Source of the DNA: Ornithinimicrobium sediminis
GTDB taxonomy: Bacteria; Actinomycetota; Actinomycetes; Actinomycetales; Dermatophilaceae
Length of the DNA: 64,000 nt
Reading direction: 5' to 3'
Assembly (NCBI RefSeq): GCF_021272345.1
Contig: NZ_JAJSDQ010000001.1
Coordinates: forward strand, 434,001 to 498,000
The notes under the pieces were generated by a model, which searched no databases, had not been told where the DNA came from, and saw nothing but the letters and a program-made list of their open reading frames with translations. Below, one piece after another: positions 6,633 through 8,326 of the stretch. Position 1 is the first letter of the stretch. Each line of letters starts with the position of its first letter. The position numbers and the translations under genes were made by a program.

Positions 6633-7225
6633 TGGAGGCGTTCAGCACCCACACCGGCATCGGCGTGCCGCTGCGCCGCAGCAACATCGACACCGACCAG
6701 ATCATCCCGGCGTCCTACCTCAAGCGGGTCAGCCGCACCGGCTTCGAGGACGGCCTGTTCGCCCGGTGGCGCGAGGACCCCTCGTTCGTGCTGAACGACA
6801 CCTCGTACGCCGGAGGCTCGGTGCTCGTCGCCGGCCCCGACTTCGGCACCGGCTCCTCTCGTGAGCACGCGGTGTGGGCGTTGATGCAGTACGGCTTCCA
6901 CGTCGTCATCGCCTCCCGCTTCGGCGACATCTTCCGTGGCAACTCCGGCAAGCAGGGCCTGCTGTGCGCGCAGGCGGCCCAGGACGACGTCGAGCTCATC
7001 TGGAAGTACCTGGAGAGCACCCCCGGCGGCACGGTGACCGTCGACCTCGAGCACCGGCAGGTCACGGCCGGCGACATCGTCTGCACGTTCCAGGTCGACG
7101 ACTACACGGCCTGGCGGCTGCTCAACGGCCTGGACGACATCTCGCTCACGCTGCAGCACGCGGACGACATCACGGCCTACGAGGCCCGGCGCCCGGCATA
7201 CAAGCCCTCCATCGTCGCCCCGTGA
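6632..7225 (+). CDS. leuD: 3-isopropylmalate dehydratase small subunit
   Basis: The swivel-domain subunit that pairs with LeuC. It has 197 residues, the usual size, with the motifs [15 protein letters not shown] near the N-terminus and [17 protein letters not shown] in the middle, the loop that reaches into the active site. The start is the ATG sharing a base with the leuC stop. The stop codon TGA (7223-7225) lies inside the left arm of a 60-bp palindromic repeat, so the repeat supplies the end of the gene and could also end the transcript. Confidence 0.95.
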
Positions 7226-7281
7226 CCGATGTGCGCTCCCGCGCACCTCTCGACCGCGACACCGGAGCGCGCATCGGTCAC
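7222..7281. repeat. 60-bp palindromic repeat, copy A
   Basis: An imperfect palindrome with 18-base arms (7222-7239 and 7264-7281) that differ at one position. The arms contain the stop codons of both convergent neighbours: leuD on the left, and the AbiEi-like/DUF559 gene on the right. A second copy (47 of 60 bases identical, same orientation) lies at 8267-8326 on the other side of the nuclease gene. It may also work as a bidirectional terminator. Confidence 0.85.
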
Positions 7282-8207
7282 GAGGCGCGGCCACGGGCCG
7301 CGGAGCGGGCGAAGGCGGCCAGCACCCGTGCGTGCACCCGCTCCGGGTGTGCCAGGTCCGCCCAGGTGAGGCGCACCACCTCGTAGCCGAGCCGGCGCAG
7401 CGCGTCCTCGCGCAGCTTCTCGGCCGTGACGTCACGCACCGTGCCGTACTTCAGCAGTCCGTCGAACTCCACCACCACCCGCTCGGCGCGGAACAGAAAG
7501 TCGACCCGGGCGCTGAACCCGCCCTCTCCCGAGATCCACGCCTGCGGCTCAGGGACCGGCAGCCCCACGACGTGCAGCAGCCACCTCGTCCGCGACTCCC
7601 CGGCAGACTCCGACGTGCCGTCGGCCAGCCTCGCCACCAGGGCCGCGCGGCCGGCGCCGTTGCCGCGGGGCGCGCCCGCGAGCGCCTCGGTGAGCCGGGC
7701 CCGCCCCTGCTGACGGACGACGGCATCCGCGCTCACCAGCCCGGCCTCCACCCCGAACAGGTCCGCGACCTGCAGGGCGGCCAGCGGTCCGTCGACCACG
7801 CAGATGTCGTCGACCCTGGTCAGGAACGCCTCCGGGACGGGGTCGTGGATGCGGGTGGCACTGCCACCGCGGCGGACCCCGTCGAGCCGCGCCAGGTGCA
7901 CCCGGTCGTCGACACCGTGGACGGGCAGACCGAGGAGCGCCAGGGCGCTGTGGTGGCTGAGAGCGAAGGGGGCCCGGCGCCACGCCCGCGCCGTACCCCG
8001 CGCCCGCAGCGCGTGCCGCTCCCAAGGCGCGGCGGCACGCCATACCTCCGCGTCCACGACGACGTCGCGCCGCAGGCGGACGAGGTCTCCGCGAGCGACG
8101 GCGCGGCTCACCACGTGACGCGAGATGCCGAGGTCGACGAGCTCGGTCACCGAGCTCACGCCGCCCTGGGCGCCCAGCCTCCCGGCGATGACAGGGTCGA
8201 GGGCCAT
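7278..8207 (-). CDS. AbiEi-like winged-helix protein with DUF559 (Vsr-like) nuclease domain
   Basis: A 309-residue protein. The N-terminal 60 residues ([32 protein letters not shown]) look like the winged-helix of AbiEi-type antitoxins. The middle holds the [14 protein letters not shown] motif. The C-terminal 110 residues resemble a DUF559/Vsr-like PD-(D/E)xK fold: a Glu in SAGES, an Asp in RVDFLF and the [11 protein letters not shown] motif, then [18 protein letters not shown]. No adjacent AbiEii-type nucleotidyltransferase is present, so it is not an ordinary type IV toxin-antitoxin pair. I chose the ATG at 8207 over an upstream start at 8345 because homology-like sequence begins there. The gene lies between two 60-bp palindromes. 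Its function is unknown. Confidence 0.8.
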
Positions 8208-8266
8208 GCACCCACTCTCGTCCGTGCAGCCCCTGGTGCCCGCCGGCTGTCCACAGGCCGCTCCGG

Positions 8267-8326
8267 GTGCCCGATGTGCGTGCGGGTGCACGTCTCGACG
8301 CCGACACGGGAGCGCACAACGGGCAC
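8267..8326. repeat. 60-bp palindromic repeat, copy B
   Basis: The partner of copy A, in the same orientation, with the shared inner core TCTCGAC and outer arms GTGCCCGATGTGCG (8267-8280) and its near-complement. It lies between the start of the nuclease gene and the leuA promoter, ending 4 bases before the -35 hexamer. Confidence 0.8.

Follow-up and report, generated by a model that had tools for sequence, protein, structure and literature searches.

To our knowledge, only HuH-type enzymes have so far been tied to REP-type repeats. RAYT enzymes are encoded by mostly single-copy genes flanked by two REP palindromes, and cognate REPs, which coevolve with the enzyme, are scattered over the genome, as described in the accessible text of two papers (PMC2817692, PMC8266576); the spread of REP palindromes is called poorly understood in the accessible text of the latter (PMC8266576). 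On the protein side, the closest described systems include the EDxHD homing endonucleases such as I-Bth0305I, to whose family a DUF559-containing gene has been assigned according to the accessible text of PMC9403480, and the AbiE type IV toxin-antitoxin systems. In Streptococcus, AbiEi is reported (PMC3985639) to bind promoter inverted repeats extending to 23 bp each, a layout close to that of the palindromes described here. The VsrA protein of Caulobacter shares a DUF559/Vsr-like nuclease domain with the protein studied in this work and differs in being tied to cytosine methylation; the string "palindrom-" is absent from the accessible text of its description (PMC12907096). Among the papers listed by searches of the open full-text literature, outside of which most subscription papers fall, none connects palindromes, whether at the flanks of the gene or scattered, with nucleases of the DUF559, MTES_1575 or AbiEi type.

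The locus described here lies in a window of 64,000 nucleotides (the whole stretch of DNA that was analysed) from Ornithinimicrobium sediminis. It comprises a nuclease gene on the minus strand (7278-8207), encoding a protein of 309 aa with an AbiEi-like half and a DUF559/Vsr-like half, and two 60-bp imperfect palindromes at 7222-7281 and 8267-8326 (neither assigned to a strand), each of them one of eight copies in the genome. The left neighbour, leuD (6632-7225, plus strand), is convergent with the nuclease gene, and the right neighbour is leuA (8481-10190, plus strand). The original prediction had described a single AbiEi-like/DUF559 nuclease gene bracketed between leuD and leuA by two 60-base imperfect palindromes that align without gaps, the left one carrying the leuD stop codon and, in its other arm, that of the nuclease gene, and this layout was confirmed in all its parts. 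The two copies are identical at 47 of 60 positions in an ungapped alignment and agree with their own reverse complements at 44/60 (left) and 40/60 (right) positions; repeat detection reports the pair as 64 nt at 78% and, for the left palindrome, arms at 7216-7239 and 7264-7287 that are 92% complementary. The TGA of leuD (7223-7225) falls within the left palindrome and the stop of the nuclease gene (7278-7280) in its opposite arm, and a distance of 59 bp separates the right palindrome from the start codon of the nuclease gene, upstream of which it lies. No AbiEii-like toxin gene was found beside the nuclease gene, the neighbours being read as leuD and leuA.

For the window protein, Pfam reports DUF559 at 22.1 bits (cut-off 20.6) and AbiEi_4 at 19.5 bits, under its cut-off of 25. 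Among 46 sequences, AbiEi_4 was matched by 40, DUF559 by 20 and MTES_1575 by 15 at E≤0.01, and a PADLOC AbiEi model by 45 of the 46 members at the same threshold; no transposase family (HuH/Y1, Transposase_17) appeared in the Pfam scans, and the PDB searched by sequence gave no convincing match. An AlphaFold2 model computed with the 46 sequences (pLDDT 95.9, pTM 0.91) confidently predicts two domains, an AbiEi-type half joined to a nuclease of the Vsr/I-Bth0305I type. In a Foldseek search of the PDB, the top match is 6y8q, an AbiEi antitoxin (E 4e-5, TM 0.46 by target length); Rv2827c (1zel) comes next, and the search also finds the catalytic domain of I-Bth0305I (3r3p, E 7.7e-3, TM 0.74 by target length) and Vsr (E 0.09). 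All 46 sequences of A3 have in common the residues E204, D236, E247, D249 and K253, which, judged on the model, probably form the active site. With the EDxHD homing endonucleases the modelled protein shares the Vsr-like fold of the nuclease domain, seen in 3r3p, and conserved acidic residues; it differs from them in that its gene is flanked by two complete elements and splits no site, and in that its DNA-binding half is AbiEi-like. The AbiE likeness lies in the AbiEi fold and the Pfam and PADLOC matches of the N-terminal half, whereas the lack of an AbiEii-like neighbour in the window, the fused nuclease and the dispersed palindromes set the present system apart.

BLAST with either window copy finds further full-length copies of the palindrome in the same genome. 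A covariance model built from the eight own-genome copies, a search proposed along with the original prediction, recovers all eight, with matches on either strand scoring 50.9-76.9 bits; of 5203 candidates, 150 were scored, and nothing else among these exceeded 20.9 bits. Six of the eight copies have no adjoining nuclease gene. Judged from the translated neighbours, one separates rplA from rplJ (contig C9), one follows a symporter-like gene and one lies between two divergent genes (both on C10), two are between convergent genes (C11 and C12) and one is beside an ion-channel-like gene (C14). The original prediction had named palindromes scattered without relation to DUF559 genes as evidence against itself, and for these six copies such scatter is literally what is seen; it does not refute the idea because a REP-type system predicts lone copies, and the link to the cognate gene comes from the wider data. 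By our own arithmetic, random placement of eight copies in 3.53 Mb would yield about 0.017 pairs with the spacing seen in the window or less, so the pair taken alone is only suggestive. A chance repeat is ruled out by the covariance-model search together with the excess of bracketing over controls in the genus and in named genomes.

No full copy of the own palindrome was found in the 30 congeners. Among 58 genomes scanned, the own genome included, there were two further, weak matches, one of 37.1 bits in G006 and one of 32.2 bits in G017; both were rejected as unrelated in appearance when their sequences were read. The palindrome was not found in 395 further genomes of the order (13 candidates scored per genome), its exact pattern occurs 0 times in genome_contigs (from which the own record was possibly left out) and in viral_contigs, and plasmids and phages gave short matches only (E 0.05-0.7). 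Within the family, the conserved positions are symmetric. A half resembles its partner in the same copy no more closely than it resembles halves from elsewhere, the paired fraction, 77.8%, is the same as the mean after shuffling, and there is no covariation across the eight copies. Such a pattern would be expected if the site is recognised by a symmetric protein, and not if it forms an RNA hairpin.

Every one of the 31 genus genomes has homologues of the window protein (137 matches in total). Fragmented matches were joined, and most of those with E above 1e-20 were set aside; for the 91 loci then examined, in 30 of the 31 genomes, the 600 bp on the two sides of the gene were compared with each other, a pair being defined as a repeat of at least 35 bases at E≤1e-8. 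A matching pair was found for 61/91 genes versus 3/563 same-size spans in the same loci, 1/224 spans at leuA loci and 1/129 gene-like ORFs. At the lax cut-off of E≤1e-3, the counts were 71/91 genes versus 96/563, 25/224 and 23/129 in the respective controls; good separation from the controls is obtained at the strict cut-off only. At least one bracketed gene is present in 28 of the 30 genomes examined, and a reach of 900 bp applied to all genes leaves the total at 61/91.

The window itself contains a second AbiEi/DUF559-type gene (62504-63424, minus strand), which was scored as a miss at the 600-bp reach; its product has 306 aa and shares 40% identity with that of the first gene across the stretch that matches. 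The gene is bracketed by palindromes of its own, different from those of the first gene (E 1e-14), at 61844-61908 (no strand assigned) and, inverted, at 63548-63612 (81.5% over 65 bases). This second family recurs at C10:224934, C7:346604 and C10:481024, and a partial copy lies at C10:31038.

Bracketing extends to other genera within the Actinobacteria, to which the survey was confined. A profile search of named genomes gave 533 confirmed stretches, and of the best 80 of these, 77 had enough flank; at E≤1e-8, 54/77 are bracketed versus 0/219 control spans. Among the 77, 22 are genus loci (Ornithinimicrobium, Serinicoccus) or belong to genomes already in the genus set, with 10/22 bracketed; outside the genus set, the count is 44/55, again from the best 80 of 533 stretches. 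At this cut-off, pairs were found in Kribbella (25/29), Phycicoccus (5/5), Terrabacter, Janibacter, Knoellia and Nostocoides (2/2 each), two Dermatophilaceae contigs (2/2), Flexivirga (1/1), Jiangella (1/1), one locus labelled Streptomyces (1/1) and one Micrococcales MAG (1/2). Seven single loci have none: Pedococcus, Intrasporangium, Intrasporangiaceae, Tetrasphaera and three MAGs, one of which is the other half of the 1/2 just given. Altogether, 30/91 genus genes and 23/77 named genes have no pair at E≤1e-8. The own protein has no match at E≤1e-5 in plasmids and phages, and in viral_contigs none of 52 pattern matches to the profile A3 was confirmed.

The bracketing repeats are mostly about 60-70 bp long and tend to be palindromic. 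In 136 copies taken at E≤1e-5, a median of 20 of 30 pairs is complementary, versus 16 in 408 control intervals; at least 22/30 pairs are complementary in 36% of the copies versus 0.5% of the control intervals, and 49% of the copies lie above the 99th percentile of the control, the remaining 51% at or below it.

From one gene to another the palindrome changes, and this holds inside a single genome too: for 59 same-genome pairs, the mean similarity score of 4.9 equals background. A comparison of 61 genes with clean frames relates these differences to the proteins. Below 50% protein identity, the fraction of pairs above the palindrome-similarity line is 0.00 (1640 pairs); it is 0.50 at 70-80% identity (16 pairs) and 23/23 at 80% identity or more, and the Mantel correlation is 0.72, a value reached in 0/2000 permutations. 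Palindrome similarity thus tracks protein similarity; part of the correlation comes from shared ancestry of the locus, most pairs of high identity being syntenic. One non-syntenic pair (L083-L139, 74% identity, with L083 nearly without left flank) has matching palindromes, and several pairs of 58-63% identity retain related ones. By contrast, certain syntenic pairs of about 70% identity are unlike in their palindromes. At one syntenic locus (L080, L082, L089, L141), the nuclease genes of different species are accompanied by quite different palindromes, which suggests rapid turnover or replacement in place.

These elements are dispersed in the genomes searched. When 22 palindromes were compared with the 31 genus genomes (11 candidates scored per genome), repeated scattered matches were found among the matches listed, and among these they lie chiefly in the genome with the cognate gene or in its close kin. 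For five palindromes from other genera, with limited candidates scored, the two strands merged manually and the copies flanking the gene counted, the numbers of places are 13 in Kribbella kalugense, 15 in Kribbella pratensis, 6 in Terrabacter aerolatus, 9 in Terrabacter sp. Root85, 6 in Phycicoccus sp. Soil748 and 8 in Nostocoides sp. Soil756. Matches to these five are confined to the cognate genome, except for the Terrabacter pair, which has a common family, and one weak cross-match within Kribbella. Related nuclease genes of G011, G026 and G007 (L162, L164 and L165) each have one in-frame TGA in the matched stretch, and among the matches listed the L164- and L165-type palindromes are widely dispersed in G026 and G007 despite it. 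In G021 (L308-L312), there are several lone L181-type palindromes and, among the 137 genus matches, no homologue at the syntenic place, a situation like that of orphan REPs after loss of the enzyme.

The best reading of this material is a REP/RAYT-like partnership built on an unrelated enzyme. Such a logic had been part of the original prediction, and it is supported by the systematic bracketing (61/91 and 54/77), by palindromes linked to nuclease lineage and by their dispersal; movement of the window cassette itself and the action of the nuclease are presumed. Common to both systems are an enzyme gene flanked by two palindromes, dispersed and mostly intergenic cognates, and coevolution of enzyme and palindrome, here with the caveat of synteny. 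The enzymes differ, an AbiEi-like plus Vsr/DUF559-like nuclease here and a HuH transposase in RAYT systems; so do the repeats, which here are about 60-70 bp long and lack the GTAG tag in the own family, and their numbers, 6-15 places per genome counted here (eight in the own genome) against hundreds of REPs. Absence of the GTAG/CGTC tag was read by eye in 40-bp flanks of the eight own copies and applies to the own family only. Because the enzyme is unrelated, the own family is untagged and copy numbers are low, the system is likened to a REPtron in the way it works and is not one.

We propose that the two flanking palindromes are copies of the recognition element of the endonuclease encoded between them, an enzyme specific for its palindrome. 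Its AbiEi-like half may bind the half-sites of the dyad of about 60 bp, and the half with the Vsr/EDxHD-homing-endonuclease fold may cut DNA at or near the palindrome. Repair of the break would then copy the palindrome, and more rarely the entire palindrome-gene-palindrome unit, into new and mostly intergenic places by a putative copying route. Recombination between the flanking copies would delete the gene and leave one palindrome, and the palindrome upstream of the gene may double as the operator of the enzyme in a putative autoregulation. Cut-and-repair copying by a palindrome-specific nuclease, in which the binding, the cutting and the route of copying are all presumed, is the most likely mechanism, and we hold it to be probable. 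The wider proposition, that AbiEi-Vsr fusions, each of which recognises a palindrome of its own of about 60-70 bp and copies it, and sometimes itself, around actinobacterial chromosomes by cut-and-repair, constitute a second, independently evolved bacterial class of enzyme plus palindrome, convergent with RAYT/REP, seems to us somewhat better than an even bet. An unrelated nuclease class with the same arrangement and many enzyme-palindrome pairs provides an independent test case for the spread of palindromes. It also suggests a role for orphan genes of the DUF559/AbiEi type, which are a large group, and offers natural proteins, presumably recognising long DNA sites, whose targets are readable from the genome.

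A gene fixed between leuD and leuA throughout the family, with no empty sites, was the second finding that the original prediction had named as evidence against itself. In the stretches covered, 22 of the 30 congeners have leuD and leuA no more than about 2 kb apart, and the interval (L109-L138) is a variable spot: it is empty in 6/22 (195-245 bp between the LeuD and LeuA matches), holds DUF559-like genes of other kinds in 7/22, a TerC-like gene in 7/22 and a thioesterase-like gene in 1/22 (TerC and thioesterase named by eye), and is unclear in 1/22. Because six junctions are empty, the nuclease gene is not fixed at this place, and the interval is often occupied by DUF559-like genes. Here, genes of the g011 type are bracketed at E≤1e-8 in 2/6 cases, as are other DUF559-like genes in G010 and G003; the thioesterase-like gene and two TerC-like genes had no bracketing pair when tested.

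Such presence and absence of the gene would also be produced by a selfish gene of the homing-endonuclease kind, in which movement is limited to the cassette and past loss of the gene accounts for lone palindromes, as scars or empty homing sites; the resemblance of the nuclease half to the homing endonuclease I-Bth0305I fits this explanation, as do sites where a palindrome has been kept. Gene-less sites with one palindrome are found in G012 (L293), G029 (L299) and G021 (L309), whose sisters have palindrome-gene-palindrome; at L309, a palindrome-like stretch adjoins the kept palindrome, and none of the three places has a nuclease homologue among the 137 genus matches. Since at least six genomes hold the gene at the L299 place, loss by recombination between the two flanking copies is suggested there. 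Whether empty sites keep one palindrome, as asked along with the original prediction, has a mixed answer: those of G012, G029 and G021 do, and the gene-less relatives G016 (compared with L093) and G009 (compared with L195) have no aligning palindrome.

A lone palindrome of G007 (L297) speaks against homing. It lies just past the stop of a gene and is absent from 8/8 relatives tested, which have 7-26 bp between the conserved flanks in seven cases and 66 bp in one; it is a lineage-specific insertion, whose exact ends are not fixed and for which a target-site duplication is not definable. Neither gene nor palindrome is present at this place in the eight relatives, so no lost gene is needed to explain it. 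The nuclease gene is, moreover, flanked by two complete elements and not by a split one, and lone copies outnumber genes. A homing-type origin is, on balance, unlikely. Another lone copy, L294, was rejected as a clean insertion, its palindrome being common to G007, G012 and G021.

Cut-and-repair copying allows the upstream palindrome to be an operator; a quite different proposal is that the palindromes are operators of an AbiEi-type regulator, acting at its own promoter and on a small regulon, with the nuclease half serving another job, e.g. in defence. The promoter of AbiEi is reported (PMC3985639) to carry inverted repeats, up to 23 bp in length, to which AbiEi itself binds, the 5' element lies at a median of 119 bp from the gene (51 elements with at least 19/30 complementary pairs), and the half-sites of the own family vary independently, as protein half-sites may. 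Against an operator role stand the second copy on the 3' side, at a median of 72 bp from the gene (47 elements with at least 19/30 pairs), the own copies between convergent genes (leuD/nuclease, C11 and C12) and, by the reading of translations, beside genes of unrelated function, and the lineage-specific insertion in G007. We consider this proposal improbable, more so than homing.

The palindromes could further be ordinary MITE-like miniature transposons mobilised by an unseen transposase, with the nuclease as a passenger. They are short inverted-repeat elements that seldom fall in coding-like ORFs (11/36 lone copies overlap one versus 131/159 random positions, a crude proxy for intergenic location), but they change with the nuclease lineage, bracketing recurs in many genera, and within the own loci read no transposase with such ends was seen; passive carriage of the nuclease is very unlikely.

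Strong hairpin folding is seen in most copies, and the L198-type family shows covariation, with 10 pairs changed on both sides versus 4.6 in shuffles (0/500 reach it; 19 copies, among which related rows inflate the value). RNA structure was rejected as the basis of the own family, in which the eight copies show no covariation. Transcription terminators or structured RNA around the gene are a scarcely credible explanation, given this, the location of copies upstream of genes and, by reading, between divergent genes, the lack of any Rfam match at gathering threshold in window positions 6500-9000, and a palindrome sequence that goes with the nuclease.

The right palindrome of the window ends 4 bp ahead of a promoter-like TTGACG (motif found by eye), and a reading frame for a leuA leader peptide (8366-8413, plus strand, by eye) lies outside the cassette. 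The leader, which has a run of leucines, follows a promoter-like TTGACG-N16-TAGGCT (by eye), the two together lying in window positions 8331-8413. A similar leader, together with a hairpin of the CCGCAGCGAG/CTCGCTGCGG type, is present in the seven congener leuD-leuA junctions compared.
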